Of a stretch of 64,000 bases of DNA, positions 1-18,691 are shown piece after piece (the first letter of the stretch is position 1; every line of letters starts with the position of its first letter). The notes beneath the pieces are model-generated. The model made no database searches, was not told the origin of the DNA, and saw nothing but the letters and a program-made list of their open reading frames with translations. The translations under genes were made by a program, and so were the position numbers. Source of the DNA: Ligustrum vulgare (taxonomy: Eukaryota > Streptophyta > Magnoliopsida > Lamiales > Oleaceae); contig OY743169.1 in NCBI GenBank assembly GCA_963555705.1, positions 4,712,014 through 4,776,013 of the forward strand, written 5' to 3'.

Positions 1-568
1 TTCATATACTTTTCCATATTTATACAAATAATATGCTCTTCATGATTATATATAATGGAGTCTTATCAATCATTCATATACTTTTCCATATTTATACAAA
101 TATTATGCTCTTCATGATTATATATAATGGAGTCTTATCAATCATTCATATACTTTTCCATATTTATACAAATATTATGCTCTTCATGATTATATATAAT
201 GGAGTATATAAATCATTCATATACTTTTCCATATTTATACAAATATTATGCTCTTCATGATTACATATAATGGAACCTCTCATGCTTGCATATATTTTCT
301 TAATTTAAATAATAAAAGTAATTTTTGTACAAATAAATATTGGGATAACATTGAATTAAGTACTTAGACTTAATATACTTTAAATCAAGAGAATGGAGAT
401 ATTTTTAGAAATTCGGAATTTAATTTAAAATCGAACGATCTCGATTATTTCTTGACTTGGCTATACGAATACGTCGTGGCGTTAACTTAATAAAAATGGG
501 TGAAATAGTAGCGACACGATTTTCTATTAAAATAATTATTAATCGCGTAAAAATTCTTGGTCGCTACA
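1..568 (-). repeat. LTR-1 (right-hand 568 bp only)
   Basis: This is the plus-strand right end of an LTR, identical in layout to 6684-7251. It holds four units of the 72-bp minisatellite (1-276) and then a unique part ending in GGTCGCTACA at 568. On the element's own strand this is the LTR start (TGTAGCGACC). The rest of the LTR lies left of the window. Confidence 0.88.
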
Positions 569-570
569 AA

Positions 571-581
571 CTTACCCCCTT
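571..581 (-). other. Polypurine tract, unit 1
   Basis: On the minus strand this reads AAGGGGGTAAG, two bases before the LTR start TGTAGCGACC. It follows the pol tail that encodes FEDEI, the usual layout at the 3' end of plant chromoviruses. The same tract is at 7254-7264 and 13937-13947. Confidence 0.85.
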
Positions 582-803
582 AAAATAATTTCGTCCTCGA
601 AATTAAACTTACTTGATCTTATGATTTCTGAACACTTAATCAGAATCTCTTCTTCTTCTTCTTATGTAGCATCATCGCTACCATATTTAACCCAACCATA
701 TTTAACCCACTGGACTTTGACTAAATGCATCAATTTGTTTTCTTAAGACATGAACTTTTCTATCAATAATAGACATATGTCTACTCATAAATTCTTCTGA
801 ATC
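572..803 (-). pseudogene. Chromovirus pol C-terminal remnant with chromodomain, unit 1
   Basis: Translating the minus strand from about 803 down gives an integrase-tail segment (SIIDRKVHVLRKQI), then after a frameshift a chromodomain-like stretch (HLVKVQWVKYGWVKYG, then SDDAT), a stop where the conserved Trp of the ATWE motif is expected, an acidic EEEEEIL run, and the terminal FNFEDEIILRG followed by a stop next to the polypurine tract. This order is characteristic of chromovirus pol proteins. VKYGW/VKYG is a small internal duplication. Frameshift and stop show that it is dead. It is the only recognisable retroviral coding sequence left in the unit and fixes the element's ancestry. Confidence 0.82.
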
Positions 804-1489
804 AAAATGAAAATTCCCAATCGTATGTGATATTTCATCATATCTTGTAGTACTCATGTAACCTGTCACTTATCATCGTATCATGTAACCTCAAATATTC
901 GTATTAATATCTCTAAAATCTTTACTAACATATCATACCATAATAATTTGTCATTTCTTCTTATCACCAAATATCCCAAAATAATTAAAACGATTACCTG
1001 AATATTTTCTATGTAATATACCCAAACATGTTATTCACATATCAACATAATCATCAGTTTATCTTTCCAATATTTGTAACCCAAAATTTCTGCAAAATTC
1101 AATAAACAAATATCTCCCAAATAATTAAAATTCTTAACTCAAATATCATAACATTTCCCGTAAGGTATTCCTTTCACTTGCACAAACTTATTAATCCTGA
1201 TTCAATACAGTCCTTATTTCACTTTCACGTATCCCCGTATTATTTCTATACCTTGATTATTATATCAAAATATCAGTACCCAAAATCCAAGAAAATATTC
1301 CATATCTCAAATCCCGTCATCATCAAATCTTCCTTTTATCAAGAAAGTAAACGGCGCATAACTCTTGTTCCCTCTTTTCCATTATTCTATTCCGCGCTTT
1401 CTTGCTGGAATCAATATCACGCGGATTCCCTCCGATCCTTAATGCTTTTAAATAGTTCATGCTGGGAAGAGGTTAGATCCATCAAAAAC
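804..1489. other. AT-rich internal region upstream of the NABP-like gene
   Basis: No gene is recognised here. The reading frame of the NABP-like protein stays open from codon 1178 (TTG), but the first methionine in it is at 1442 and the best start is at 1490. A TATA-like string TTTTAAATAG lies at 1447-1456, about 35 bp before the ATG, which is close for a promoter and may be chance. Repeated in units 2 and 3 at +6683 and +13366. Confidence 0.5.
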
Positions 1490-2041
1490 ATGGATATCAT
1501 TCTTACAAACATTCGCAAGTATTATTCCAGTCTTCCAATGAATGATCTGAGGAAAATTTATCGAATAAGACTCGAAAGATTGAGGTTGCTGATGGCTCAT
1601 GGTGTTTCAGAAGATGTTCGCTGGTTGATCGAAGCAAAGGTTCGACTATCTGGTGAATTACCTATGACATTTCCAAAGCACATGCCTGGTTTAGGCAAAA
1701 GCACCTTCGCAAAGAAACGAAGAGCAAAAAGGCTGAATGGTTGCTACAAATGTGCTCGTTGGAACTGTGATACTCGTTGCAAAACAGTAGGATATTCTTC
1801 TACTAATCGGGATGATAAAATCAAATTCATAAAGGGTGGACTGAGTAAGGAGTCTTTGGATGATATTCGACTGACTCTTGAGACGCACCCAAGTGGTTAT
1901 GTGCAACGTGAACTTCTCTCCTTATACGCTCAGTTTAACGAGGACAAAAATCGTTATAGTCTCCAAAATATAATAGCAAAAGATCCTGTTTGCCAGTCTG
2001 TTTTACAAAATGAGGCTTCTGGCAGTTCATCAATGATATAA
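1490..2041 (+). CDS. Zinc-finger protein resembling plant-virus cysteine-rich nucleic-acid-binding protein, unit 1
   Basis: A 183-residue protein on the strand opposite to the retroelement. ATG 1490 is chosen because it has a good context (A at -3, G at +4); a longer open frame runs upstream to 1178 but begins with TTG. The N-terminal 65 residues are predicted mostly helical and charged. A strongly basic stretch (KSTFAKKRRAKRL, residues 70-82) runs directly into four cysteines at 85, 88, 93 and 97 (C-x2-C-x4-C-x3-C), followed by a hydrophobic-basic segment (KFIKGGLSKESL, 112-123). That order matches the viral NABP family of carlaviruses and relatives, which bind nucleic acid and in one case act in the host nucleus. 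The finger spacing is shorter than in the viral family. The C-terminal 60 residues have no match I recognise. Nuclear, nucleic-acid-binding action is inferred. The gene lies 337 bp upstream of LOG on the same strand. Confidence 0.72.
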   Translation: MDIILTNIRKYYSSLPMNDLRKIYRIRLERLRLLMAHGVSEDVRWLIEAKVRLSGELPMTFPKHMPGLGKSTFAKKRRAKRLNGCYKCARWNCDTRCKTVGYSSTNRDDKIKFIKGGLSKESLDDIRLTLETHPSGYVQRELLSLYAQFNEDKNRYSLQNIIAKDPVCQSVLQNEASGSSSMI

Positions 2042-2100
2042 GGTAAATCTCTTGATACACATTTAAAATATTTTGCTGTTTTCTTTCACGCGTTTTGAAA

Positions 2101-2191
2101 ATAAAATATATTTTCCTTTCTCGAGTTTTGATAAAGCTGGAAATAAATATATTTTCCTTTCTCGAGGTTTGATAAAGCTGGAAATAAATCA
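2101..2191. repeat. 41-bp direct duplication between the two cargo genes
   Basis: The string TTTTCCTTTCTCGAG followed by TTTGATAAAGCTGGAAATAAA occurs twice with a 41-bp offset (2111 and 2152), one base apart in sequence. It lies just downstream of the NABP-like stop codon. Present in all three units. Confidence 0.75.
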
Positions 2192-2295
2192 CCGAAAGGT
2201 GATATCTTTGGTAAAACAGTCAAAAGTTGGCCGATTTTGTCAAAAGTAAATCTTTACTTTTTCAGAATCAATCAAAAACAGTAAGTTTTTCCGGC

Positions 2296-2304
2296 TTTAA
2301 ATAG
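2296..2304 (+). promoter_or_regulatory. TATA box of the LOG gene
   Basis: TTTAAATAG lies 75 bp upstream of the LOG start codon and is followed by an AC/CT-rich leader (ATCACATCTTCTTCG), the usual layout of a plant core promoter. This suggests LOG has its own plus-strand promoter, independent of the minus-strand LTR promoter. Same element at 8979-8987 and 15662-15670. Confidence 0.55.
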
Positions 2305-2378
2305 CCAAACATATTTCATAGTTCAGGCATCCCAAAATCACATCTTCTTCGTAAGTTTTCTCTTCTATACTATCAAAG

Positions 2379-3032
2379 ATGGAAGCACCAAAACTTCGAC
2401 AGATCAAAACTATTTGTGTATTTTGTGGATCAAAAGTGGGGAAAGGTTTCAGTTATCTAGAAGCGGCCGTAGATCTTGGAAAGAAACTGGGGGAAAAAGG
2501 TATCACTCTTGTATATGGGGGTGGTAGCAGTGGTCTAATGGGTTGTGTTTCCCAATCTGCTCTTGCAGAGAAATCAAAAGTAATCGGTGTCATACCTGTC
2601 CCTTTGGTAGATGTTGCAGGAAAAACACGAGGGCATGAAGTTCAAACCTTATCCATCCATGAACGCATAACTTGTATGCTATATGGTTCTGATGCCTTTA
2701 TAGCCCTGCCCGGAGGTTTTGGTACCTTAGAAGAAATCTTTAACATTACCTCGTGGGCTCAACTAGATCTCCATACTAAGCCTATTGGGCTTCTGAATGT
2801 TAACAATTTCTTTGATGGCTTGTTAACCTTTCTTGATTATGCTGTGGAACAGGGATTCATCTCTCCATTTTCCAGAAGGCTCCTTATTTCTGCTCCTACT
2901 ATTGATGAACTACTGGATAAGCTGCAGTCATATATCTCAATACAAGATCCAGCAGGGGTTAAGATAGATTGGTCGCAAGGAAGGGGAATCAAGCGAAAAT
3001 GGAGTCCGGTTAATGTAAACTTAACTTTATGA
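2379..3032 (+). CDS. LOG: LOG-type cytokinin riboside 5'-monophosphate phosphoribohydrolase, unit 1
   Basis: 217 residues, the normal length of plant LOG enzymes, which release active cytokinin bases from their riboside 5'-monophosphates in the cytosol or nucleus. Visible signatures: N-terminal ICVFCGS (12-18), the Rossmann-type VYGGGSSGLMG (45-55), and the nucleotide-binding PGGFGTLEE (111-119) followed by WAQL and KPIGLLN. The plant motif usually written QRKAEM is here ERITCM (95-100): the arginine (96) remains but the lysine after it is Ile. The C-terminus continues into a basic tail (GIKRKW). The frame is uninterrupted and has no introns, whereas plant LOG genes normally have several, so this copy probably came through RNA. 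ATG 2379 has a good context. It sits antisense inside an LTR element; own TATA box at 2296. Whether it is expressed or active is unknown. Confidence 0.93.
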   Translation: MEAPKLRQIKTICVFCGSKVGKGFSYLEAAVDLGKKLGEKGITLVYGGGSSGLMGCVSQSALAEKSKVIGVIPVPLVDVAGKTRGHEVQTLSIHERITCMLYGSDAFIALPGGFGTLEEIFNITSWAQLDLHTKPIGLLNVNNFFDGLLTFLDYAVEQGFISPFSRRLLISAPTIDELLDKLQSYISIQDPAGVKIDWSQGRGIKRKWSPVNVNLTL

Positions 3033-3042
3033 ATCTTAGAAT

Positions 3043-3255
3043 AGGTGGGGGTAGAGTACGGAGTATTCTTACTCTCGAGACACCCCTCTAATTTCCTAGG
3101 ATTTCCTTAATGTTTAAATCTTGTGTGTACCTCAAAGGTTCCAGGTGGTAGATTACGGAGTATTCTTACTCTCGAAACACACCTCTTTGAAGGTTTCTTT
3201 ATTTCCTCAAAAGGTCAGAGGTGGTAGGATACGGCTACTCCGGAAACACATCTCT
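3043..3255. repeat. Three imperfect hairpin repeats 3' of LOG
   Basis: Three related blocks at 3043-3088, 3143-3186 and 3218-3255 each read roughly GGTGGTAGxxTACGGAGTA-TTCT-TACTC-TCGAAACACACCTCT. The first two contain the short inverted pair GAGTA/TACTC and all three have an outer pairing of AGGTG/GAGG with CACCT/CTCT-type ends. They start 10 bp after the LOG stop codon and could fold in its 3' UTR. Function unknown. Repeated in units 2 and 3. Confidence 0.6.
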
Positions 3256-4183
3256 CAATTTGAGGAATTTCCCATGTTGCTTTCTTTTGCTTTTGCGTGT
3301 TTCATGTATTTCTTTCCAGTGTGACTCTTGTGTGTTCTCCTTACGAGAAAATAATAATATCTCTGTTATCATCTACTAAATCTCGTTTGTGATGTAAATG
3401 AATTTGCATGTCTAACCTCAATTCTCTTAGTGATTGCATACCATACTATGCTCTTAATTCCAAACGATAAAATTCTAGGCAGAGTTTCCTTTGAAATTTG
3501 GACTTATTCAAACCGTAAGCATACTTCATAACTCACAATAATAAATAATTCCACATTTGATCACAACGATCTAAAAATTGACCACAATTTCATCAAACTT
3601 CAATATCATAAAAAATATTCCAGAAAATCAATTCATAATTCCTCAACATAGAAATTTCAAATCATAGTCGTCAATATCACAATATCACTTCCTTCAATAC
3701 CTTAATTGGCTCAAAAGATTACTCATACTTATATTTATAAGTCATAAATCATATTCCCAAAATTTAATCACAAGGCCAAAGTTCATAATAAATTTCTCTT
3801 CAATATAGAGGCATAATTCACTTACTCAACATAATATCCATTACTTAATTCCCAATAACCAAATCTTTAAATCTCTAACTTCATAATGCTTCTCATAAAA
3901 GTCTCATTAAAATCATATCACTTATAATCTTAACATCTCATAAAACTTCATAAAATTGGCTCGCTATTTCTCATTAAATCTAAATGATAGATAATCTGAA
4001 CATATTTCTAATCATTTCTGTTGACTTCTCATACTTAATGCCATGTCTAAAATCAATTATGCAAAGTCCATTTAAGGTTTATCATTTCTAAACTCGAGGA
4101 CAACAATTATTTTGAAAATCATTCTTAAGTCATATTATTCATATTATGCTCAACACCCGTTCTCTTTCTTTCTTTTCTTTCTG

Positions 4184-4222
<39 letters not shown>

Positions 4223-5312
4223 CAGAATTGAAACTTGAAGAGTGGTACCAATAATCATCCACAGTTTTTCCTTGCTTTTAAGCAAAGGTAGTGATAAAGG
4301 GATAAATTATTGAACCGAAAATTGAAACTTGAAGAGGAAGTACTAATAACCATCCACAGTTTTTCCCTTGTTTTTACACAAAGGTAGTGATAAAGGGATA
4401 AATTATTGTACGAATTCATTATCAATTTTGTTTGTTTAATATATTATTCCATATATTTTGGGCAAAAGTTACAACCCAACTTAATTTCTAATTGAGTCAA
4501 TCTTACTAAGCTTAATATGCACCAAAATTCATATAAATATCCTCTCTGTCTCATGATTCTACATTGAAAAGAATAAAAAAATTGAGTCTTCTATCAATTT
4601 ATATCATACTTGACATGTATATTATGTGTAACACATAAAGATTCATAACATATGAATATTTCATACTTAACATGCTTCAATATAATCATAAATGCCATGT
4701 AATTGCTATTATACATAACATACCTGGTTCGAGGAGTCAATACGTGGAGAGTGACATAGTAGAGTGATGAGTTAAAATATTTCATATAATCTTATTTTCC
4801 TTTAATCAACAATAATTTAATGTGGTTGTATCCAAATCAACATTTTCTTGAATCATAATTCCTAATTAATCACAGTCTTCAAAACAAATCCAATATCGAT
4901 ATAGTAATTATCTCCCCATCAATAATTAATAACTTAACCCAAATAAAATTTATCGTCAAATCTTATTTTTCCTTTAGTCCCCGAACTTCTAGAAATTTAT
5001 CAAAGACATCAATATAAACATCAAATCACTAACTAATTATATTCCATAAAATTTTCAGGACATTACAAACTCCATTGCTTAAAATGAATTTTGTCATTGA
5101 AATTCGCACATCAAATTTCATCATGCTTTTCAAAATCATAACCATACTTGACATGTGAAAATTCAACTTTTTTTTTATAATGAATAGTGATTTCGTTCAC
5201 TGTTCATCATGAATAGCACGTCGTTTTACTGTTCACGTGAATAGTGATTTTTTTTTTTTTTTTTAAAGAAATAAAATTTCAAAAATCTACAGAATCGTTT
5301 TTAAAACTCTTT
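3256..5312. other. Non-coding 3' half of internal region, unit 1
   Basis: AT-rich with no recognisable gene or gag remnant on either strand. It contains a poly-T run (about 4186-4222) whose length differs between units, an imperfect 94-bp tandem duplication (4227-4410), and near the primer-binding site several copies of TTCACTGTTCA / GTGAATAGTGA (5195-5250), a motif seen in the leader of plant chromoviruses. Confidence 0.6.
4227..4410. repeat. 94-bp imperfect tandem duplication
   Basis: ATTGAAACTTGAAGAG... at 4227 recurs at 4321; both copies contain CCATCCACAGTTTTTCC or its near match and AAAGGTAGTGATAAAGGG before ATAAATTATTG. Present in each unit. Confidence 0.75.
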
Positions 5313-5324
5313 GCTCTGATACCA
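5313..5324 (-). other. Primer-binding site for initiator tRNA-Met
   Basis: On the minus strand this is TGGTATCAGAGC, the classic complement of the 3' end of plant tRNA-iMet, four bases after the end of LTR-2. It shows reverse transcription is primed leftward through the internal region. Confidence 0.9.
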
Positions 5325-5838
5325 ACTTTGACGACCCGAATTCTCGACCATTCGAGTGCCACTAAAAGTGACTCATATCATATTATCGAGACTTAAATAG
5401 TAATGTAAAATTATTCAAAAGAATAATTAGAATCCCATAATTTAATTTGTGAATAAAAATAGAACATAATTTTCTTACATAAAGTTCAACATAATTATCT
5501 CATCAATCTTAACCACTTTTGCCACTTCCATGTTGACCGCCTCGAACCTTCAATTATCTGAAAATGGTAAATATCGTGGAGTGAGATTTATAAAATCCCA
5601 GTAAGTATACCAAGCATAAATTTTCTTTTGAAAGCATATGGATCATTTTCATCATAACATAGGATAGGATCGAAATACTCATAAACATAGGGAGACACAA
5701 GAATTTTACCGAACTTAAATGGCAAGAATTCTTATGTGTAGCGCTACTAAACTCCGGTCCCCTTAGCATAATCATAAACATATCATATGGAACCCATAAC
5801 AATCTTGTGAGATTGATTTCATAGCAATGATCCAAACA

Positions 5839-6462
5839 TTTTCATAAAAACATAAGATATACTTACTTGTCATAAAAACATACTTACTTTTCATAAAAAC
5901 ATAAGGTGTATTTACCTTTCATAAAAACATACTTACTTTTCATAAAAACATAAGATATACTTACTTGTCATAAAAACATACTTACTTTTCATAAAAACAT
6001 AAGGTGTATTTACCTTTCATAAAAACATACTTACTTTTCATAAAAACATAAGATATACTTACTTGTCATAAAAACATACTTACTTTTCATAAAAACATAA
6101 GGTGTATTTACCTTTCATAAAAACATACTTACTTTTCATAAAAACATAAGATATACTTACTTGTCATAAAAACATACTTACTTTTCATAAAAACATAAGG
6201 TGTATTTACCTTTCATAAAAACATACTTACTTTTCATAAAAACATAAGATATACTTACTTGTCATAAAAACATACTTACTTTTCATAAAAACATAAGGTG
6301 TATTTACCTTTCATAAAAACATACTTACTTTTCATAAAAACATAAGATATACTTACTTGTCATAAAAACATACTTACTTTTCATAAAAACATAAGGTGTA
6401 TTTACCTTTCATAAAAACATACTTACTTTTCATAAAAACATAAGATATACTTACCTTTTAAA
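5839..6462. repeat. 98-bp minisatellite in LTR-2
   Basis: AGATATACTTACTTG recurs exactly every 98 bp (5855, 5953, 6051, 6149, 6247, 6345, then 6443 with a variant end), giving six full units plus a partial one. Each unit is built of four sub-repeats of TCATAAAAACATA with alternating endings of about 29 and 20 bp. The 93-codon frame at its left edge (5554-5835, minus) is not supported as a gene. Confidence 0.95.
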
Positions 6463-6683
6463 AGATTAAAATGAAGTGTAGTAGTAAATTGACCAAAACT
6501 TTCTTGACCACCTTGAATTTCTCTTACTTGTGGATTTTGTCAAGAGATTGGAAATAAGTGTATATGTGTAGAGTTGTGTGTAAAAGAGATGGGTTTAAAT
6601 AGATGTATAAAGTTGGCATATTGTAAACATAATCATTCAATTCTATTAATTTTAACACATCATTTTCTTAAAGTAAAGCACCA

Positions 6684-6958
6684 TTCATATACTTTTCCAT
6701 ATTTATACAAATAATATGCTCTTCATGATTATATATAATGGAGTCTTATCAATCATTCATATACTTTTCCATATTTATACAAATATTATGCTCTTCATGA
6801 TTATATATAATGGAGTCTTATCAATCATTCATATACTTTTCCATATTTATACAAATATTATGCTCTTCATGATTATATATAATGGAGTATATAAATCATT
6901 CATATACTTTTCCATATTTATACAAATATTATGCTCTTCATGATTACATATAATGGAA
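6684..6958. repeat. 72-bp minisatellite in LTR-2
   Basis: Four units of TTCATATACTTTTCCATATT... with period 72, the last separated by 71. Because 72 is divisible by three, a 24-residue peptide pattern stays open through it; this is a side-effect of the period, not evidence of a gene. The same array is at 1-276 and 13367-13641, with five units at 20149-20494. Confidence 0.95.
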
Positions 6959-7253
6959 CCTCTCATGCTTGCATATATTTTCTTAATTTAAATAATAAAA
7001 GTAATTTTTGTACAAATAAATATTGGGATAACATTGAATTAAGTACTTAGACTTAATATACTTTAAATCAAGAGAATGGAGATATTTTTAGAAATTCGGA
7101 ATTTAATTTAAAATCGAACGATCTCGATTATTTCTTGACTTGGCTATACGAATACGTCGTGGCGTTAACTTAATAAAAATGGGTGAAATAGTAGCGACAC
7201 GATTTTCTATTAAAATAATTATTAATCGCGTAAAAATTCTTGGTCGCTACAAA

Positions 7254-7486
7254 CTTACCCCCTTAAAATAATTTCGTCCTCGAAATTAAACTTACTTGAT
7301 CTTATGATTTCTGAACACTTAATCAGAATCTCTTCTTCTTCTTCTTATGTAGCATCATCGCTACCATATTTAACCCAACCATATTTAACCCACTGGACTT
7401 TGACTAAATGCATCAATTTGTTTTCTTAAGACATGAACTTTTCTATCAATAATAGACATATGTCTACTCATAAATTCTTCTGAATC
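7254..7486 (-). pseudogene. Polypurine tract and chromodomain pol remnant, unit 2
   Basis: Same structure and same inactivating frameshift and stop as at 571-803; polypurine tract at 7254-7264. Confidence 0.82.
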
Positions 7487-8172
7487 AAAATGAAAATTCC
7501 CAATCGTATGTGATATTTCATCATATCTTGTAGTACTCATGTAACCTGTCACTTATCATCGTATCATGTAACCTCAAATATTCGTATTAATATCTCTAAA
7601 ATCTTTACTAACATATCATACCATAATAATTTGTCATTTCTTCTTATCACCAAATATCCCAAAATAATTAAAACGATTACCTGAATATTTTCTATGTAAT
7701 ATACCCAAACATGTTATTCACATATCAACATAATCATCAGTTTATCTTTCCAATATTTGTAACCCAAAATTTCTGCAAAATTCAATAAACAAATATCTCC
7801 CAAATAATTAAAATTCTTAACTCAAATATCATAACATTTCCCGTAAGGTATTCCTTTCACTTGCACAAACTTATTAATCCTGATTCAATACAGTCCTTAT
7901 TTCACTTTCACGTATCCCCGTATTATTTCTATACCTTGATTATTATATCAAAATATCAGTACCCAAAATCCAAGAAAATATTCCATATCTCAAATCCCGT
8001 CATCATCAAATCTTCCTTTTATCAAGAAAGTAAACGGCGCATAACTCTTGTTCCCTCTTTTCCATTATTCTATTCCGCGCTTTCTTGCTGGAATCAATAT
8101 CACGCGGATTCCCTCCGATCCTTAATGCTTTTAAATAGTTCATGCTGGGAAGAGGTTAGATCCATCAAAAAC

Positions 8173-8724
8173 ATGGATATCATTCTTACAAACATTCGCA
8201 AGTATTATTCCAGTCTTCCAATGAATGATCTGAGGAAAATTTATCGAATAAGACTCGAAAGATTGAGGTTGCTGATGGCTCATGGTGTTTCAGAAGATGT
8301 TCGCTGGTTGATCGAAGCAAAGGTTCGACTATCTGGTGAATTACCTATGACATTTCCAAAGCACATGCCTGGTTTAGGCAAAAGCACATTCGCAAAGAAA
8401 CGAAGAGCAAAAAGGCTGAATGGTTGCTACAAATGTGCTCGTTGGAACTGTGATACTCGTTGCAAAACAGTAGGATATTCTTCTACTAATCGGGATGATA
8501 AAATCAAATTCATAAAGGGTGGACTGAGTAAGGAGTCTTTGGATGATATTCGACTGACTCTTGAGACGCACCCAAGTGGTTATGTGCAACGTGAACTTCT
8601 CTCCTTATACGCTCAGTTTAACGAGGACAAAAATCGTTATAGTCTCCAAAATATAATAGCAAAAGATCCTGTTTGCCAGTCTGTTTTACAAAATGAGGCT
8701 TCTGGCAGTTCATCAATGATATAA
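8173..8724 (+). CDS. Viral-NABP-like zinc-finger protein, unit 2
   Basis: 183 residues, protein sequence identical to the unit 1 copy. The only coding difference noticed is silent: the third base of a Thr codon in the basic stretch (8388 A instead of C). Retention of an open frame in all copies fits either a very recent amplification or selection. Confidence 0.72.
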   Translation: MDIILTNIRKYYSSLPMNDLRKIYRIRLERLRLLMAHGVSEDVRWLIEAKVRLSGELPMTFPKHMPGLGKSTFAKKRRAKRLNGCYKCARWNCDTRCKTVGYSSTNRDDKIKFIKGGLSKESLDDIRLTLETHPSGYVQRELLSLYAQFNEDKNRYSLQNIIAKDPVCQSVLQNEASGSSSMI

Positions 8725-9061
8725 GGTAAATCTCTTGATACACATTTAAAATATTTTGCTGTTTTCTTTCACGCGTTTTGAAAATAAAATATATTTTCCT
8801 TTCTCGAGTTTTGATAAAGCTGGAAATAAATATATTTTCCTTTCTCGAGGTTTGATAAAGCTGGAAATAAATCACCGAAAGGTGATATCTTTGGTAAAAC
8901 AGTCAAAAGTTGGCCGATTTTGTCAAAAGTAAATCTTTACTTTTTCAGAATCAATCAAAAACAGTAAGTTTTTCCGGCTTTAAATAGCCAAACATATTTC
9001 ATAGTTCAGGCATCCCAAAATCACATCTTCTTCGTAAGTTTTCTCTTCTATACTATCAAAG

Positions 9062-9715
9062 ATGGAAGCACCAAAACTTCGACAGATCAAAACTATTTGT
9101 GTATTTTGTGGATCAAAAGTGGGGAAAGGTTTCAGTTATCTAGAAGCGGTCGTAGATCTTGGAAAGAAACTGGGGGAAAAAGGTATCACTCTTGTATATG
9201 GGGGTGGTAGCAGTGGTCTAATGGGTTGTGTTTCCCAATCTGCTCTTGCAGAGAAATCAAAAGTAATCGGTGTCATACCTGTCCCTTTGGTAGATGTTGC
9301 AGGAAAAACACGAGGGCATGAAGTTCAAACCTTATCCATCCATGAACGCATAACTTGTATGCTATATGGTTCTGATGCCTTTATAGCCCTGCCCGGAGGT
9401 TTTGGTACCTTAGAAGAAATCTTTAACATTACCTCGTGGGCTCAACTAGATCTCCATACTAAGCCTATTGGGCTTCTGAATGTTAACAATTTCTTTGATG
9501 GCTTGTTAACCTTTCTTGATTATGCTGTGGAACAGGGATTCATCTCTCCATTTTCCAGAAGGCTCCTTATTTCTGCTCCTACTATTGATGAACTACTGGA
9601 TAAGCTGCAGTCATATATCTCAATACAAGATCCAGCAGGGGTTAAGATAGATTGGTCGCAAGGAAGGGGAATCAAGCGAAAATGGAGTCCGGTTAATGTA
9701 AACTTAACTTTATGA
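9062..9715 (+). CDS. LOG: LOG-type cytokinin phosphoribohydrolase, unit 2
   Basis: 217 residues, identical to the unit 1 enzyme except Ala30 to Val (GCC to GTC, base 9150), in the helix after the first strand and away from the nucleotide-binding motifs. No introns; TATA box at 8979-8987. Active-site segments VYGGGSSGLMG and PGGFGTLEE are unchanged, so activity should match unit 1 if either is active. Confidence 0.92.
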   Translation: MEAPKLRQIKTICVFCGSKVGKGFSYLEAVVDLGKKLGEKGITLVYGGGSSGLMGCVSQSALAEKSKVIGVIPVPLVDVAGKTRGHEVQTLSIHERITCMLYGSDAFIALPGGFGTLEEIFNITSWAQLDLHTKPIGLLNVNNFFDGLLTFLDYAVEQGFISPFSRRLLISAPTIDELLDKLQSYISIQDPAGVKIDWSQGRGIKRKWSPVNVNLTL

Positions 9716-9725
9716 ATCTTAGAAT

Positions 9726-10866
9726 AGGTGGGGGTAGAGTACGGAGTATTCTTACTCTCGAGACACCCCTCTAATTTCCTAGGATTTCCTTAATGTTTAA
9801 ATCTTGTGTGTACCTCAAAGGTTCCAGGTGGTAGATTACGGAGTATTCTTACTCTCGAAACACACCTCTTTGAAGGTTTCTTTATTTCCTCAAAAGGTCA
9901 GAGGTGGTAGGATACGGCTACTCCGGAAACACATCTCTCAATTTGAGGAATTTCCCATGTTGCTTTCTTTTGCTTTTGCGTGTTTCATGTATTTCTTTCC
10001 AGTGTGACTCTTGTGTGTTCTCCTTACGAGAAAATAATAATATCTCTGTTATCATCTACTAAATCTCGTTTGTGATGTAAATGAATTTGCATGTCTAACC
10101 TCAATTCTCTTAGTGATTGCATACCATACTATGCTCTTAATTCCAAACGATAAAATTCTAGGCAGAGTTTCCTTTGAAATTTGGACTTATTCAAACCGTA
10201 AGCATACTTCATAACTCACAATAATAAATAATTCCACATTTGATCACAACGATCTAAAAATTGACCACAATTTCATCAAACTTCAATATCATAAAAAATA
10301 TTCCAGAAAATCAATTCATAATTCCTCAACATAGAAATTTCAAATCATAGTCGTCAATATCACAATATCACTTCCTTCAATACCTTAATTGGCTCAAAAG
10401 ATTACTCATACTTATATTTATAAGTCATAAATCATATTCCCAAAATTTAATCACAAGGCCAAAGTTCATAATAAATTTCTCTTCAATATAGAGGCATAAT
10501 TCACTTACTCAACATAATATCCATTACTTAATTCCCAATAACCAAATCTTTAAATCTCTAACTTCATAATGCTTCTCATAAAAGTCTCATTAAAATCATA
10601 TCACTTATAATCTTAACATCTCATAAAACTTCATAAAATTGGCTCGCTATTTCTCATTAAATCTAAATGATAGATAATCTGAACATATTTCTAATCATTT
10701 CTGTTGACTTCTCATACTTAATGCCATGTCTAAAATCAATTATGCAAAGTCCATTTAAGGTTTATCATTTCTAAACTCGAGGACAACAATTATTTTGAAA
10801 ATCATTCTTAAGTCATATTATTCATATTATGCTCAACACCCGTTCTCTTTCTTTCTTTTCTTTCTG

Positions 10867-10901
<35 letters not shown>

Positions 10902-11995
10902 CAGAATTGAAACTTGAAGAGTGGTACCAATAATCATCCACAGTTTTTCCTTGCTTTTAAGCAAAGGTAGTGATAAAGGGATAAATTATTGAACCGAAAA
11001 TTGAAACTTGAAGAGGAAGTACTAATAACCATCCACAGTTTTTCCCTTGTTTTTACACAAAGGTAGTGATAAAGGGATAAATTATTGTACGAATTCATTA
11101 TCAATTTTGTTTGTTTAATATATTATTCCATATATTTTGGGCAAAAGTTACAACCCAACTTAATTTCTAATTGAGTCAATCTTACTAAGCTTAATATGCA
11201 CCAAAATTCATATAAATATCCTCTCTGTCTCATGATTCTACATTGAAAAGAATAAAAAAATTGAGTCTTCTATCAATTTATATCATACTTGACATGTATA
11301 TTATGTGTAACACATAAAGATTCATAACATATGAATATTTCATACTTAACATGCTTCAATATAATCATAAATGCCATGTAATTGCTATTATACATAACAT
11401 ACCTGGTTCGAGGAGTCAATACGTGGAGAGTGACATAGTAGAGTGATGAGTTAAAATATTTCATATAATCTTATTTTCCTTTAATCAACAATAATTTAAT
11501 GTGGTTGTATCCAAATCAACATTTTCTTGAATCATAATTCCTAATTAATCACAGTCTTCAAAACAAATCCAATATCGATATAGTAATTATCTCCCCATCA
11601 ATAATTAATAACTTAACCCAAATAAAATTTATCGTCAAATCTTATTTTTCCTTTAGTCCCCGAACTTCTAGAAATTTATCAAAGACATCAATATAAACAT
11701 CAAATCACTAACTAATTATATTCCATAAAATTTTCAGGACATTACAAACTCCATTGCTTAAAATGAATTTTGTCATTGAAATTCGCACATCAAATTTCAT
11801 CATGCTTTTCAAAATCATAACCATACTTGACATGTGAAAATTCAACTTTTTTTTTATAATGAATAGTGATTTCGTTCACTGTTCATCATGAATAGCACGT
11901 CGTTTTACTGTTCACGTGAATAGTGATTTTTTTTTTTTTTTTTTTTTAAAGAAATAAAATTTCAAAAATCTACAGAATCGTTTTTAAAACTCTTT
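9726..11995. other. Non-coding 3' half of internal region, unit 2
   Basis: Same content as 3043-5312: hairpin repeats, poly-T (about four bases shorter), 94-bp duplication, and GTGAATAGTGA motifs. The T-run after GTGAATAGTGA (11926-11947) is longer than in unit 1 by about four bases, which restores the 6683-bp spacing. Confidence 0.6.
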
Positions 11996-12007
11996 GCTCT
12001 GATACCA
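11996..12007 (-). other. Primer-binding site for initiator tRNA-Met, unit 2
   Basis: TGGTATCAGAGC on the minus strand, four bases inside LTR-3. Confidence 0.9.
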
Positions 12008-12011
12008 ACTT

Positions 12012-13934
12012 TGACGACCCGAATTCTCGACCATTCGAGTGCCACTAAAAGTGACTCATATCATATTATCGAGACTTAAATAGTAATGTAAAATTATTCA
12101 AAAGAATAATTAGAATCCCATAATTTAATTTGTGAATAAAAATAGAACATAATTTTCTTACATAAAGTTCAACATAATTATCTCATCAATCTTAACCACT
12201 TTTGCCACTTCCATGTTGACCGCCTCGAACCTTCAATTATCTGAAAATGGTAAATATCGTGGAGTGAGATTTATAAAATCCCAGTAAGTATACCAAGCAT
12301 AAATTTTCTTTTGAAAGCATATGGATCATTTTCATCATAACATAGGATAGGATCGAAATACTCATAAACATAGGGAGACACAAGAATTTTACCGAACTTA
12401 AATGGCAAGAATTCTTATGTGTAGCGCTACTAAACTCCGGTCCCCTTAGCATAATCATAAACATATCATATGGAACCCATAACAATCTTGTGAGATTGAT
12501 TTCATAGCAATGATCCAAACATTTTCATAAAAACATAAGATATACTTACTTGTCATAAAAACATACTTACTTTTCATAAAAACATAAGGTGTATTTACCT
12601 TTCATAAAAACATACTTACTTTTCATAAAAACATAAGATATACTTACTTGTCATAAAAACATACTTACTTTTCATAAAAACATAAGGTGTATTTACCTTT
12701 CATAAAAACATACTTACTTTTCATAAAAACATAAGATATACTTACTTGTCATAAAAACATACTTACTTTTCATAAAAACATAAGGTGTATTTACCTTTCA
12801 TAAAAACATACTTACTTTTCATAAAAACATAAGATATACTTACTTGTCATAAAAACATACTTACTTTTCATAAAAACATAAGGTGTATTTACCTTTCATA
12901 AAAACATACTTACTTTTCATAAAAACATAAGATATACTTACTTGTCATAAAAACATACTTACTTTTCATAAAAACATAAGGTGTATTTACCTTTCATAAA
13001 AACATACTTACTTTTCATAAAAACATAAGATATACTTACTTGTCATAAAAACATACTTACTTTTCATAAAAACATAAGGTGTATTTACCTTTCATAAAAA
13101 CATACTTACTTTTCATAAAAACATAAGATATACTTACCTTTTAAAAGATTAAAATGAAGTGTAGTAGTAAATTGACCAAAACTTTCTTGACCACCTTGAA
13201 TTTCTCTTACTTGTGGATTTTGTCAAGAGATTGGAAATAAGTGTATATGTGTAGAGTTGTGTGTAAAAGAGATGGGTTTAAATAGATGTATAAAGTTGGC
13301 ATATTGTAAACATAATCATTCAATTCTATTAATTTTAACACATCATTTTCTTAAAGTAAAGCACCATTCATATACTTTTCCATATTTATACAAATAATAT
13401 GCTCTTCATGATTATATATAATGGAGTCTTATCAATCATTCATATACTTTTCCATATTTATACAAATATTATGCTCTTCATGATTATATATAATGGAGTC
13501 TTATCAATCATTCATATACTTTTCCATATTTATACAAATATTATGCTCTTCATGATTATATATAATGGAGTATATAAATCATTCATATACTTTTCCATAT
13601 TTATACAAATATTATGCTCTTCATGATTACATATAATGGAACCTCTCATGCTTGCATATATTTTCTTAATTTAAATAATAAAAGTAATTTTTGTACAAAT
13701 AAATATTGGGATAACATTGAATTAAGTACTTAGACTTAATATACTTTAAATCAAGAGAATGGAGATATTTTTAGAAATTCGGAATTTAATTTAAAATCGA
13801 ACGATCTCGATTATTTCTTGACTTGGCTATACGAATACGTCGTGGCGTTAACTTAATAAAAATGGGTGAAATAGTAGCGACACGATTTTCTATTAAAATA
13901 ATTATTAATCGCGTAAAAATTCTTGGTCGCTACA
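12012..13934 (-). repeat. LTR-3, complete (1923 bp)
   Basis: Same boundaries (TG...CA) and length as LTR-2, with the 98-bp array at 12522-13145 (six units plus partial) and the 72-bp array at 13367-13641 (four units). Shared by units 2 and 3. Confidence 0.9.
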
Positions 13935-13936
13935 AA

Positions 13937-14169
13937 CTTACCCCCTTAAAATAATTTCGTCCTCGAAATTAAACTTACTTGATCTTATGATTTCTGAACA
14001 CTTAATCAGAATCTCTTCTTCTTCTTCTTATGTAGCATCATCGCTACCATATTTAACCCAACCATATTTAACCCACTGGACTTTGACTAAATGCATCAAT
14101 TTGTTTTCTTAAGACATGAACTTTTCTATCAATAATAGACATATGTCTACTCATAAATTCTTCTGAATC
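13937..14169 (-). pseudogene. Polypurine tract and chromodomain pol remnant, unit 3
   Basis: Same structure and lesions as units 1 and 2; polypurine tract at 13937-13947. The shared lesions show pol was already dead before amplification. Confidence 0.82.
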
Positions 14170-14855
14170 AAAATGAAAATTCCCAATCGTATGTGATATT
14201 TCATCATATCTTGTAGTACTCATGTAACCTGTCACTTATCATCGTATCATGTAACCTCAAATATTCGTATTAATATCTCTAAAATCTTTACTAACATATC
14301 ATACCATAATAATTTGTCATTTCTTCTTATCACCAAATATCCCAAAATAATTAAAACGATTACCTGAATATTTTCTATGTAATATACCCAAACATGTTAT
14401 TCACATATCAACATAATCATCAGTTTATCTTTCCAATATTTGTAACCCAAAATTTCTGCAAAATTCAATAAACAAATATCTCCCAAATAATTAAAATTCT
14501 TAACTCAAATATCATAACATTTCCCGTAAGGTATTCCTTTCACTTGCACAAACTTATTAATCCTGATTCAATACAGTCCTTATTTCACTTTCACGTATCC
14601 CCGTATTATTTCTATACCTTGATTATTATATCAAAATATCAGTACCCAAAATCCAAGAAAATATTCCATATCTCAAATCCCGTCATCATCAAATCTTCCT
14701 TTTATCAAGAAAGTAAACGGCGCATAACTCTTGTTCCCTCTTTTCCATTATTCTATTCCGCGCTTTCTTGCTGGAATCAATATCACGCGGATTCCCTCCG
14801 ATCCTTAATGCTTTTAAATAGTTCATGCTGGGAAGAGGTTAGATCCATCAAAAAC

Positions 14856-15407
14856 ATGGATATCATTCTTACAAACATTCGCAAGTATTATTCCAGTCTT
14901 CCAATGAATGATCTGAGGAAAATTTATCGAATAAGACTCGAAAGATTGAGGTTGCTGATGGCTCATGGTGTTTCAGAAGATGTTCGCTGGTTGATCGAAG
15001 CAAAGGTTCGACTATCTGGTGAATTACCTATGACATTTCCAAAGCACATGCCTGGTTTAGGCAAAAGCACCTTCGCAAAGAAACGAAGAGCAAAAAGGCT
15101 GAATGGTTGCTACAAATGTGCTCGTTGGAACTGTGATACTCGTTGCAAAACAGTAGGATATTCTTCTACTAATCGGGATGATAAAATCAAATTCATAAAG
15201 GGTGGACTGAGTAAGGAGTCTTTGGATGATATTCGACTGACTCTTGAGACGCACCCAAGTGGTTATGTGCAACGTGAACTTCTCTCCTTATACGCTCAGT
15301 TTAACGAGGACAAAAATCGTTATAGTCTCCAAAATATAATAGCAAAAGATCCTGTTTGCCAGTCTGTTTTACAAAATGAGGCTTCTGGCAGTTCATCAAT
15401 GATATAA
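14856..15407 (+). CDS. Viral-NABP-like zinc-finger protein, unit 3
   Basis: 183 residues, identical to the unit 1 protein; it also has C at the silent Thr codon where unit 2 has A. Confidence 0.72.
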   Translation: MDIILTNIRKYYSSLPMNDLRKIYRIRLERLRLLMAHGVSEDVRWLIEAKVRLSGELPMTFPKHMPGLGKSTFAKKRRAKRLNGCYKCARWNCDTRCKTVGYSSTNRDDKIKFIKGGLSKESLDDIRLTLETHPSGYVQRELLSLYAQFNEDKNRYSLQNIIAKDPVCQSVLQNEASGSSSMI

Positions 15408-15744
15408 GGTAAATCTCTTGATACACATTTAAAATATTTTGCTGTTTTCTTTCACGCGTTTTGAAAATAAAATATATTTTCCTTTCTCGAGTTTTGATAA
15501 AGCTGGAAATAAATATATTTTCCTTTCTCGAGGTTTGATAAAGCTGGAAATAAATCACCGAAAGGTGATATCTTTGGTAAAACAGTCAAAAGTTGGCCGA
15601 TTTTGTCAAAAGTAAATCTTTACTTTTTCAGAATCAATCAAAAACAGTAAGTTTTTCCGGCTTTAAATAGCCAAACATATTTCATAGTTCAGGCATCCCA
15701 AAATCACATCTTCTTCGTAAGTTTTCTCTTCTATACTATCAAAG

Positions 15745-16398
15745 ATGGAAGCACCAAAACTTCGACAGATCAAAACTATTTGTGTATTTTGTGGATCAAA
15801 AGTGGGGAAAGGTTTCAGTTATCTAGAAGCGGCCGTAGATCTTGGAAAGAAACTGGGGGAAAAAGGTATCACTCTTGTATATGGGGGTGGTAGCAGTGGT
15901 CTAATGGGTTGTGTTTCCCAATCTGCTCTTGCAGAGAAATCAAAAGTAATCGGTGTCATACCTGTCCCTTTGGTAGATGTTGCAGGAAAAACACGAGGGC
16001 ATGAAGTTCAAACCTTATCCATCCATGAACGCATAACTTGTATGCTATATGGTTCTGATGCCTTTATAGCCCTGCCCGGAGGTTTTGGTACCTTAGAAGA
16101 AATCTTTAACATTACCTCGTGGGCTCAACTAGATCTCCATACTAAGCCTATTGGGCTTCTGAATGTTAACAATTTCTTTGATGGCTTGTTAACCTTTCTT
16201 GATTATGCTGTGGAACAGGGATTCATCTCTCCATTTTCCAGAAGGCTCCTTATTTCTGCTCCTACTATTGATGAACTACTGGATAAGCTGCAGTCATATA
16301 TCTCAATACAAGATCCAGCAGGGGTTAAGATAGATTGGTCGCAAGGAAGGGGAATCAAGCGAAAATGGAGTCCGGTTAATGTAAACTTAACTTTATGA
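15745..16398 (+). CDS. LOG: LOG-type cytokinin phosphoribohydrolase, unit 3
   Basis: 217 residues, identical to unit 1 (Ala30 retained). Intronless, TATA box at 15662-15670, antisense in the retroelement. Third intact copy in the window, so if the promoter works, dosage would rise with array length. Confidence 0.93.
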   Translation: MEAPKLRQIKTICVFCGSKVGKGFSYLEAAVDLGKKLGEKGITLVYGGGSSGLMGCVSQSALAEKSKVIGVIPVPLVDVAGKTRGHEVQTLSIHERITCMLYGSDAFIALPGGFGTLEEIFNITSWAQLDLHTKPIGLLNVNNFFDGLLTFLDYAVEQGFISPFSRRLLISAPTIDELLDKLQSYISIQDPAGVKIDWSQGRGIKRKWSPVNVNLTL

Positions 16399-16408
16399 AT
16401 CTTAGAAT

Positions 16409-17541
16409 AGGTGGGGGTAGAGTACGGAGTATTCTTACTCTCGAGACACCCCTCTAATTTCCTAGGATTTCCTTAATGTTTAAATCTTGTGTGTACCTCA
16501 AAGGTTCCAGGTGGTAGATTACGGAGTATTCTTACTCTCGAAACACACCTCTTTGAAGGTTTCTTTATTTCCTCAAAAGGTCAGAGGTGGTAGGATACGG
16601 CTACTCCGGAAACACATCTCTCAATTTGAGGAATTTCCCATGTTGCTTTCTTTTGCTTTTGCGTGTTTCATGTATTTCTTTCCAGTGTGACTCTTGTGTG
16701 TTCTCCTTACGAGAAAATAATAATATCTCTGTTATCATCTACTAAATCTCGTTTGTGATGTAAATGAATTTGCATGTCTAACCTCAATTCTCTTAGTGAT
16801 TGCATACCATACTATGCTCTTAATTCCAAACGATAAAATTCTAGGCAGAGTTTCCTTTGAAATTTGGACTTATTCAAACCGTAAGCATACTTCATAACTC
16901 ACAATAATAAATAATTCCACATTTGATCACAACGATCTAAAAATTGACCACAATTTCATCAAACTTCAATATCATAAAAAATATTCCAGAAAATCAATTC
17001 ATAATTCCTCAACATAGAAATTTCAAATCATAGTCGTCAATATCACAATATCACTTCCTTCAATACCTTAATTGGCTCAAAAGATTACTCATACTTATAT
17101 TTATAAGTCATAAATCATATTCCCAAAATTTAATCACAAGGCCAAAGTTCATAATAAATTTCTCTTCAATATAGAGGCATAATTCACTTACTCAACATAA
17201 TATCCATTACTTAATTCCCAATAACCAAATCTTTAAATCTCTAACTTCATAATGCTTCTCATAAAAGTCTCATTAAAATCATATCACTTATAATCTTAAC
17301 ATCTCATAAAACTTCATAAAATTGGCTCGCTATTTCTCATTAAATCTAAATGATAGATAATCTGAACATATTTCTAATCATTTCTGTTGACTTCTCATAC
17401 TTAATGCCATGTCTAAAATCAATTATGCAAAGTCCATTTAAGGTTTATCATTTCTAAACTCGAGGACAACAATTATTTTGAAAATCATTCTTAAGTCATA
17501 TTATTCATATTATGCTCAACACCCGTTCTCTTTCTTTCTTT

Positions 17542-17583
<42 letters not shown>

Positions 17584-18679: not shown

Positions 18680-18691
18680 GCTCTGATACCA
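18680..18691 (-). other. Primer-binding site for initiator tRNA-Met, unit 3
   Basis: TGGTATCAGAGC on the minus strand, four bases inside LTR-4, the outermost LTR, which is thus the 5' LTR of the array. Confidence 0.9.

Follow-up and report, generated by a model that had tools for sequence, protein, structure and literature searches.

A gag-pol-less LTR retroelement of Ligustrum vulgare that conserves an antisense viral-type nucleic-acid-binding protein gene and a LOG gene, and may use them to manage its host

Results

Organization of the element

The window, by which we mean the whole 64,000-nucleotide stretch of Ligustrum vulgare DNA that was analysed, contains at positions 1-20788 three near-identical, LTR-sharing units of one LTR retroelement that lacks gag-pol. 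As the preliminary description of this DNA had claimed, each unit carries one intact gene for a nucleic-acid-binding protein of viral type (NABP; Viral_NABP) and one intact LOG gene, both antisense to the element. The primer-binding site (PBS) at 5313-5324 and the polypurine tract (PPT) at about 571-584 assign the element to the minus strand, opposite to the two genes, which lie on the plus strand. The features are listed below.

1..568, minus: LTR part, its left portion beyond the window, 99.8% identical to 20221-20788
569..5326, minus: internal region of unit 1
about 571..584, minus: polypurine tract of the AAGGGGGTAAG type, adjoining the LTR, by direct sequence reading
1019..3268, plus: low-diversity block and probable cassette extent (copy divergence 0.1-1.4% against 1.4-6.4% on either side, an estimate biased by the picking of copies via NABP)
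1445..1455, plus: TATA-like CTTTTAAATAG upstream of NABP, a putative promoter, in 21/21 copies examined
1490..2041, plus: NABP gene of unit 1, 183 aa, viral nucleic-acid-binding-protein type (Pfam PF05515, PF01623)
2295..2304, plus: TATA-like CTTTAAATAG upstream of LOG, a putative promoter, in 21/21 copies examined
2379..3032, plus: LOG gene of unit 1, 217 aa, a single open frame (PF03641, E 1.3e-33)
3044..3089, plus: structured hairpin repeat 1, 3' of LOG
3141..3186, plus: structured hairpin repeat 2
3217..3255, plus: structured hairpin repeat 3, with a shorter inner stem
5313..5324, minus: primer-binding site TGGTATCAGAGC, by direct sequence reading
5327..7251, minus: LTR between units 1 and 2, containing a 98-bp and a 72-bp tandem array
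7252..12009, minus: internal region of unit 2
8173..8724, plus: NABP gene of unit 2
9062..9715, plus: LOG gene of unit 2
12010..13934, minus: LTR between units 2 and 3
13935..18693, minus: internal region of unit 3
14856..15407, plus: NABP gene of unit 3
15745..16398, plus: LOG gene of unit 3
18694..20788, minus: last LTR of the array, with one additional 98-bp and one additional 72-bp repeat copy

The cassette occupies much of the element interior and consists of a TATA-like box and NABP, a second TATA-like box and LOG, and the three structured hairpins. The internal region of unit 1 had earlier been bounded at 569..5328, which stands except for a right border set 2 bp too far. The two bases before TGACGACC are TG in other copies and TT in all three window LTRs. 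PBS and PPT are present inside the LTRs in the window, and an exact match to the PBS string occurs in 14 of 20 copies fetched from the genome. We take TGGTATCAGAGC to be of the initiator tRNA-Met type and, judging from the form of PBS and PPT, presume the element to be of Ty3 type.

On the minus strand, the internal region contains 35 stop-free stretches of at least 30 aa, the longest being 94 aa, and a Pfam search of 10 of these 35 returned no retroelement domain. No reverse transcriptase was seen in the element. The chromodomain expected of a Ty3/gypsy chromovirus was not confirmed: the 55-aa piece at 705-869, previously read as a dead chromodomain tail, matched no Pfam family at E<=5. With paired LTRs, target-site duplications, PBS and PPT and without gag-pol of its own, the element is a non-autonomous (LARD-like) LTR retrotransposon. 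A PBS pattern search gave 4 variants; the one examined (L046-L047) has no stop-free stretch >130 aa in 5 kb, and no autonomous partner with matching LTR, PBS and PPT was found in this one of the 4.

Copy number and mobility

The genome contains 1,876 exact matches (930+946) to a 42-bp word from NABP and 0 to its reversed control. In all 20 copies fetched by means of NABP the gene pair is flanked by LTR sequence at either end (in L024 and L032 the LTRs are cut at the end of the fetched sequence, and L023 is rearranged on one side), so that the same LTR with the same cargo at other loci, proposed earlier as a check, is found across the genome, contrary to the refuting case in which the two never co-occur elsewhere. 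The 15 LTR pairs that could be measured differ by 0-5 substitutions each, tandem-repeat number aside. Copies ascertained instead through the noncoding backbone contain both genes in 6/6 cases, with NABP open in all six (one with an altered end) and LOG full length in 4, lacking its 3' part in 1 and frameshifted in 1. Because both genes are present in the 20 NABP-ascertained and the 6 backbone-ascertained copies, we dismiss a chance association of LTR and genes. The best-scoring 150 NABP places are all >=99% identical and free of stops, while a separate scoring of 150 NABP places gave 6 with one stop; the best-scoring 150 LOG places contain no stops. Target-site duplications of 5 bp lie at the LTR ends in 17/17 testable copies among the 20 fetched; they bracket the LTRs and not the cargo, contrary to the nested insertion with its own target duplication that had been named as a refuting case, and a later nested insertion is thereby excluded. 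The family is young and has recently spread to a high copy number, its cassette and LTRs moving as one unit.

The NABP gene

The window NABP matches PF05515 (E 9.8e-8) and PF01623 (E 7.5e-5) and exceeds the Pfam gathering score of each, with a profile match of 32.7 bits against a cut-off of 23 that spans about a third of the protein. Among family members 21/22 were matched at E<=0.001, and 343 of 400 candidates are homologues at E<=0.01. The protein has a KKRRAKR basic stretch followed by C-x2-C-x4-C-x3-C (C85-C88-C93-C97). It thus resembles the NABP (cysteine-rich protein) of carlaviruses and betaflexiviruses in matching Viral_NABP and Carla_C4 above cut-off and in having a basic stretch before a cysteine cluster, but the spacing of the cluster differs from the carlavirus finger, which is C-x2-C-x12-C-x4-C in the accessible part of PMC8839810.

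The LOG gene and its C-terminal tail

The window LOG resembles Arabidopsis At2g37210 (E 4.7e-58), and the window LOGs have both PF03641 and, as PGGFGTLEE, the PGGxGTxxE signature of LOG phosphoribohydrolases. The signature is present in 107/120 nearest relatives of the window LOG, which were labelled element-type by clade and similarity rather than by location in elements, and in 109/120 host-type relatives of At LOG3. The two sets part at the C-terminus, where LxLxL is found in 92/120 of the former and 0/120 of the latter. The EAR motif is given as LxLxL or DLNx(x)P (PMC9956375, accessible part). The window LOG itself ends in a basic stretch and VNVNLTL, which is EAR-like and departs from the strict motif (LxLxL or DLNxxP) in being VxLxL, with V replacing the first L; the strict C-terminal LxLxL is found in L041, L043 and L044, and in L045 the frame extends beyond the tail. 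In our tree 43 LOGs of element type fall on one side of a branch with support 100/97, against 21 host and 2 bacterial LOGs, and the EAR-type tail is missing in 8 of these 43 rows, the two earliest-branching among them. The L041 LOG keeps the tail as LDLELRL, its signature is PGDFGTLEQ and its HER has become HES, pointing to a tail that can persist after catalysis is lost.

Hairpins downstream of LOG

Three hairpins follow LOG in both the window type and L041. Scored on the same rows from which the structure was derived, they show 20 cells in which both partners of a pair have changed, where shuffles give 7.6 (sd 2.2) and 0/500 are as high; with the partner slid by +3 as a control, 15 such cells were counted and the covariation score was 0.293 against 0.310. 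Further pair types were not above shuffles (140/500 as high), and helix 2 shows no double change in the aligned rows. The hairpins matched no known RNA family, and their folding energies are unremarkable.

Selection and deep relatives

Between the window and the L042 subfamily, dN/dS is 0.25 for NABP and 0.075 for LOG, and the coding parts are better conserved than most of the flanks (most flanking noncoding sequence is 78-89% identical, with one 87-bp piece at 95%). The ratio is well below 1 for both genes between subfamilies and lineages, and both are under purifying selection, as would be expected if the cargo is of importance to the element. Constraint on LOG is weaker within the young family, where 15 nonsynonymous and 13 synonymous codon changes give a per-site ratio of 0.36 and 3 of 21 copies have a broken LOG.

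Lineage L041 shares the gene order, the EAR tail and the hairpins at an identity of 62% for NABP and 51% for LOG; L043 and L044 also have the tail and the hairpins, and in two Orobanche gene models NABP continues into LOG, again in this order. The LOGs of element type form one deep clade that spans several eudicot families. Because of this depth and the recurrence of the pair at 62%/51% identity, the module appears to have been in place for a long time. The preliminary description, which spoke of a captured two-gene module, was right about a mobile pair and understated its age; the LOG clade, the EAR-type tail and the hairpins had escaped it. We regard the anatomy, mobility and selection described above as close to certain.

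Discussion

Proposed function

Our interpretation is that the pair forms a nuclear accessory module, with NABP acting against silencing and LOG as a cytokinin enzyme and/or TOPLESS recruiter, and we give this overall explanation a probability of about 0.55. The minus-strand LTR RNA would be copied in trans by the gag-pol of another element, while transcription of the cassette would run along the plus strand and yield proteins that serve the element in the host nucleus. Carlavirus NABPs are described as silencing suppressors (PMC8839810, accessible part); by analogy, the element NABP may act as a nucleic-acid binder that weakens RNA silencing, the chief defence of the host against elements of this kind. 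The LOG could be a cytokinin-activating enzyme with a basic tail that takes it into the nucleus; its EAR-type end may, in most of its relatives, attract the TOPLESS corepressor. Acting jointly, the two proteins might keep the cell permissive, that is, dividing and less silenced.

These parts do not carry equal weight. That the pair has some accessory role in the nucleus is somewhat better than an even bet, whereas silencing suppression by NABP, which is argued from the viral proteins, is tentative and falls a little short of even odds, and the same caution holds for TOPLESS recruitment by the LOG clade, predicted from its tail. The conservation of NABP and LOG in an element without gag-pol suggests that it uses them to manage its host, and the EAR-type tail and the reported suppressor role of carlavirus NABPs point to nuclear counter-defence at least as much as to cytokinin and cell division. 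A bolder formulation is rather doubtful: that a plant retroelement lineage has kept an effector-like pair since early eudicot history, one member a silencing suppressor of virus type, the other a hormone-activating enzyme made nuclear with a TOPLESS-recruiting tail, on an expendable gag-pol-less LTR chassis, spreading by host manipulation with borrowed copying machinery.

Alternative explanations

The strongest alternative, which we still consider unlikely, dispenses with silencing and TOPLESS and has LOG raise active cytokinin and NABP drive proliferation, giving transmission through dividing or meristem cells. It draws on the signature, which element-type LOGs keep about as often as host LOGs, and on one carlavirus whose NABP is reported to upregulate a transcription factor linked to malformation and cell proliferation (PMC8839810, accessible part); it leaves unexplained the LxLxL tail that host LOGs lack and that L041 keeps although both signature and HER are replaced.

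That the cassette is first of all a source of regulatory RNA, its antisense hairpin transcripts tuning the dsRNA or siRNA of the element with the proteins secondary, appears improbable given the protein-level selection on both frames and hairpins of ordinary folding energy outside known RNA families, even though the hairpins recur in two lineages with outer-stem changes on both sides, the cassette is antisense, and antisense RNA of such elements has been discussed as possibly regulatory (PMC7264820, accessible part).

Purifying selection, the better conservation of coding sequence than of most flanks, the recurrence of the pair in a deeply diverged lineage and its intactness in most copies examined all weigh against a neutral passenger. 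Host LOGs have introns, and the single-frame LOG fits an RNA intermediate; transduction by LTR elements is moreover known. A retro-copied transcript transduced once and useless to the element, as in maize Bs1 (PMC7264820, accessible part), is nevertheless very unlikely.

Finally, an endogenous viral sequence or host genes nested later into an LTR element and not moving with it, to which the description of the matched Pfam families from viruses would lend itself, is hardly credible and is refuted as an account of the family by the LTR-cargo-LTR copies (20/20, and 6/6 ascertained by backbone) and the LTR-end duplications (17/17 testable). The family may still have arisen through an ancient insertion; the backbone match of the relative L046 to window positions 3398-4170 stops there.

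Comparison with known systems

Extra antisense genes in plant LTR elements were described years ago, with no function assigned. Here both genes are of recognisable biochemistry, well over a thousand copies are near-identical and protein selection is measurable, which makes a benefit to the element directly testable as silencing suppression, cytokinin release or corepressor binding. A non-autonomous element has kept accessory genes while core ones were lost, and a shared protein family links plant RNA viruses and retroelements, the NABP of carlaviruses and betaflexiviruses being a viral RNA gene and that of the element a chromosomal retroelement gene. Steinbauerova et al. 2011 reportedly found two Athila-like elements with similarity to LOGL4.

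The preliminary description knew of no element with this pair. This does not hold for LOG, since plant Ty3/gypsy elements with a LOG-type (YgdH) domain have been published (Citrus and Populus consensuses; PMC9289625, accessible part) and likewise carry it as an additional ORF; it does hold for the NABP partner, to which the literature searched, mostly short of full text, gave no pointer. What is added here to the accessible part of PMC9289625 is the pairing of LOG with NABP, together with a description of the LOG clade, its EAR-type tail and the hairpins 3' of the gene. The consensuses of that study were gathered by a reverse transcriptase marker, so that gag-pol-less elements could not be found that way.

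The aORF-3R elements Grande, RIRE2 and Retand likewise have an antisense gene inside an LTR element; Grande has one with its own promoter and a nuclear protein, and some aORF-3R genes are common to several species (PMC7264820, PMC11963269, accessible parts). Their proteins are described as without clear similarity to others in the accessible part of PMC7264820, whereas here two antisense genes of recognisable kind lie in an element without pol, and the aORF-3R position, between pol and the 3' LTR, has no pol to define it. Antisense transcripts could themselves trigger dsRNA silencing, a counterpoint to counter-defence (PMC7264820, accessible part).

The orchid Ty3 element with an AlkB/2-ODD RNA demethylase is also an LTR element with an accessory enzyme of a kind known from flexiviruses, but it is 25 kb long with gag-pol and a different enzyme (PMC9289625, accessible part), whereas ours lacks gag-pol. 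Counteraction of host silencing by a transposon protein, only proposed for our element, has its parallel in the VANDAL elements of plants. These are DNA transposons. They use a dedicated VANC family (PMC10398659, PMC5735166, accessible parts), where the LTR element described here would by analogy use a virus-type protein.

Organization of the tandem array

Three head-to-tail units of ~6,683 bp each, with LTRs in common, make up the first 20.8 kb of the window. On the minus strand each unit runs LTR, primer-binding site (PBS, TGGTATCAGAGC), internal region, polypurine tract (PPT) and LTR, and on the opposite strand it carries a gene for a protein of the viral nucleic-acid-binding type (NABP, 183 aa) and a gene of the cytokinin-activation type (LOG, 217 aa).

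Features of the array (window positions)
569-5326, (-), internal region of unit 1
1490-2041, (+), NABP gene of unit 1
2379-3032, (+), LOG gene of unit 1
3044-3255, three hairpins of unit 1
5839-6454, 12522-13137, 19206-19919, 98-bp tandem array in the LTR, 6-7 copies
1-274, 6682-6957, 13365-13640, 20147-20494, 72-bp tandem array in the LTR, about 4-5 copies
5327-5328, 12010-12011, 18694-18695, PBS-side end of the LTR, TT in all three units

Pairwise comparison of the internal regions gives 0-5 substitutions and 3-11 gap columns, and that of the LTRs 0-1 substitutions. Extra repeat copies add 170 bp to the last LTR; LTR length is also unequal within some single elements. Because the PBS-side LTR end is TT in all three units and TG in other copies, the units probably descend, judging by this sequence mark, from a single TT-ended copy. 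Twelve groups of 2-3 same-strand copies with 6-8 kb spacing, counted by eye among 150 scored NABP places, suggest that LTR-sharing arrays resembling that of the window, the one array read, look common in the genome.

The two genes are open in all three units and have Pfam matches (units 1 and 2) to Viral_NABP (9.8e-8) and Carla_C4 (7.5e-5) for NABP and to Lysine_decarbox (1.3e-33) for LOG, which together with their homologues rejects chance reading frames. The preliminary description, which had two intact plus-strand genes antisense to an element without gag-pol, is borne out on both points: the longest stop-free stretch on the minus strand is 94 aa, and none of the 10 pieces (out of 35) submitted to Pfam matched a retroelement domain. 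The dead chromodomain tail that it also proposed has to be dropped, since the supposed piece was among those ten. An autonomous gag-pol partner was not found, one of 4 PBS variants having been read. Upstream of each gene lies a TATA-like CTTT(T)AAATAG, in 21/21 copies. Features that go beyond the preliminary description are this putative TATA-like box ahead of both genes, the hairpins 3' of LOG and the LOG tail.

Pfam matches and repeats in the remainder of the window
22362-22538, (-), bZIP transcription factor exon (PF00170, 1.2e-11), gene about 22.3-23.5 kb
36712-37971, (-), gag with zinc knuckle; protease match under the Pfam cut-off
40746-41402 and 42018-42674, direct repeat of 657 bp, 99.4% identical
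46562-47383, (+), integrase core (rve)
58824-60008, (-), copia-type RVT_2

The bZIP exon, which we take to be HY5-like, lies ~1.6 kb past the end of the array. The direct repeat, whose copies start about 1.3 kb apart, is possibly another young LTR pair.

A mobile family of recent spread

A 42-bp word of NABP has 930+946 = 1,876 exact copies in the host genome (1.38 Gb) and its reversed control has 0; the best 150 NABP places scored are all at least 99% identical and free of stops. In 20/20 copies, picked from 20 different contigs for near-identical NABP, LTR sequence flanks the cassette of the two genes on both sides, and perfect 5-bp target duplications are present in all 17 testable ones (those of L014 and L023 read by eye). 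Six further copies, read out of 40 listed, were ascertained on the backbone, the noncoding internal sequence outside the two genes; NABP and LOG are present in 6/6, NABP being open in all (one with an altered end) and LOG being full length in 4, without its 3' part in 1 and frameshifted in 1. A later nested insertion of the two genes into one element is rejected by these flanking LTRs, target duplications and backbone-ascertained copies, and the early view of LTR and cargo as one mobile unit stands. The cassette-bearing element is a mobile family and not a single occurrence.

The LTR pairs of single copies show 0-5 mismatches in the 15 measurable copies, a count that excludes tandem-repeat number (different in several copies, with gap columns up to 490), that leaves out L014, L023, L024, L028 and L032 (5/20), where the exact pattern did not recover both LTR ends, and that for L025, where the LTR end is duplicated, uses LTR starts set by hand. 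At an assumed rate of 1.3e-8 substitutions per site per year the measurable copies are younger than about 0.1 million years.

The genome also holds a second high-copy subfamily, comprising L042 (G000:C10:26498593) and, from a separate set of 150 scored places, over 100 that share its match profile. The one copy read, L042, has 93% (NABP) and 99% (LOG) protein identity to the window, and its flanks match mostly at 78-89%, with one 87-bp piece at 95%.

Selection and limits of the cassette

Comparing the window with L042 gives dN/dS values of 0.25 (NABP) and 0.075 (LOG). For the window and L041, a far lineage of the same genome in which synonymous sites have reached saturation, the values are 0.16 (NABP) and 0.23 (LOG). 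In the young family the codon changes of LOG number 15 nonsynonymous versus 13 synonymous (0.36 per site), and 18/21 copies have the gene intact. The corresponding NABP figures, 1 nonsynonymous and 9 synonymous, are ascertained, since the copies were chosen for near-identical NABP, and so in part is the low between-copy diversity of 0.1-1.4% in window 1019-3268, against 1.4-6.4% in both flanks (six loci lacking the exact PBS string were trimmed to 4,900 bp, with an effect on the last bins alone). This ascertainment does not apply to LOG, to the backbone set or to comparisons between families. As read from these substitution patterns, the cassette is conserved at the protein level.

A backbone-sharing fragment, L046, matches window 3398-4170, after which the match ends, and tblastn gave no NABP or LOG within the 5 kb read there. 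Such a pattern is consistent with an edge of the cassette at about 3.3-3.4 kb; L046 is an old fragment whose truncation may have other causes.

Hairpins 3' of LOG

The window, L042 and L041 each have three hairpins after the stop codon of LOG, and 1-2 are found in 800-bp pieces of three further relatives (L043-L045). When the 14 instances, which are related rows (1-3 per locus, with L041, L043, L044 and L045 close kin), are aligned, the core is invariant and the outer stem varies on its two sides: 20 cells carry both-sided changes versus 7.6 (sd 2.2) in shuffles, with 0/500 shuffles as high. When the partner is slid by +3, 15 cells show a both-sided change; further pair types are not above shuffles (140/500 as high), and three of the outer pairs fail to form in 6-7 of the 14 rows. 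Folding of the single hairpins is unremarkable (z -1.33, -1.56 and +0.29; -0.31 for the 271-nt stretch). Covariation is what argues for these putative hairpins, and its controls are mixed. A known RNA family is rejected, Rfam giving 0 matches at E<=1 in window 1-7260.

The LOG tail

The C-terminus of LOG has a basic stretch followed by LxLxL in 92/120 nearest relatives (best 120 of 7,231) and LxLxL in 0/120 host LOGs (best 120 of 7,360), the rows not being independent because many are Reevesia and Populus copies. With V permitted for the first L, the tree subset has the tail in 35/43 versus 0/20 host sequences, with 5 changes on the tree. The window tail reads VNVNLTL; L043 and L044 have a tail of the LxLxL kind, and in L045 the frame continues past it. 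In L041 the LOG relative (1892-2665, in its minus orientation) is 258 aa long, has an insertion ahead of its tail, keeps the tail as LDLELRL and has the catalytic signature altered to PGDFGTLEQ. Since PGGxGTxxE is kept in 107/120 relatives (109/120 host LOGs, both best-120 sets), enzyme activity is expected in most relatives. The EAR motif of LxLxL type recruits TOPLESS. It is treated as a repression motif in PMC9956375, and PMC8126959 has a fungal effector that reportedly hijacks Topless.

Age and relatives of the module

At E<=0.01, 343 of 400 candidates are homologues of NABP, and those named among the best 120 are from plants (Orobanche, Populus, Acer, Xanthoceras); in two Orobanche gene models NABP runs into LOG. 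The L041 lineage is 62% (NABP) and 51% (LOG) identical to the window and keeps the gene order, with the genes 60 bp apart; the 5 kb read there have no match to the window LTR. In a LOG tree (43 of the window's type, 21 host, 2 bacterial) the window type is split from host LOGs with support of 100/97 and 99/95. The tree draws 42 sequences from the best-120 relatives, a few of which may be host gene models, and 20 from the best-120 host LOGs, all near LOG1/3/4, plus LOG8; host LOG2/5/7 types are perhaps under-sampled. From this separation, and within the limits of the host sampling, LOG was probably acquired once, long before these species, the element context being assumed from the clade. Kin of NABP in viral contigs (IMG/VR) are rejected (0 loci), and a hairpin pattern search of viral contigs also gave 0 loci. 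LOG relatives occur in IMG/VR at 2 loci (L001, 47% identical; L002, 29%).

Proposed mechanism and comparison with known elements

The array belongs to an LTR element that lacks gag-pol, has spread recently and carries a cassette conserved at the protein level. We infer that it would be moved in trans by the gag-pol of another element, and that the cassette proteins would act in the nucleus on the element's behalf. PMC8839810 describes carlavirus NABPs as determinants of symptoms and suppressors of silencing; by analogy, NABP as a silencing suppressor would be of potential use to an RNA-copied parasite of plants. For a LOG with a nuclear EAR-type tail, the possible roles are cytokinin release in the nucleus, recruitment of TOPLESS, or the two together. 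The proliferation of host cells suggested in the preliminary description is a live rival to these roles, and PMC8839810 also reports, for the NABP of one virus, a link with cell proliferation and with a transcription factor.

Titles and abstract starts of the open-licence literature gave no NABP partner or EAR tail in retroelements, which is weak evidence of absence, and the terms 'cytokinin', 'LOG' and 'viral' did not occur in a term search of a 2026 review of gene capture (PMC13317346). A LOG domain in LTR elements is already in print. Athila-like elements with similarity to LOGL4 were reportedly described by Steinbauerova in 2011. That work is cited in PMC9289625, which has LTR elements of Citrus and Populus that carry a LOG/YgdH domain. 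Antisense extra genes of LTR elements are reviewed in PMC7264820, and are described for Retand in PMC11963269.
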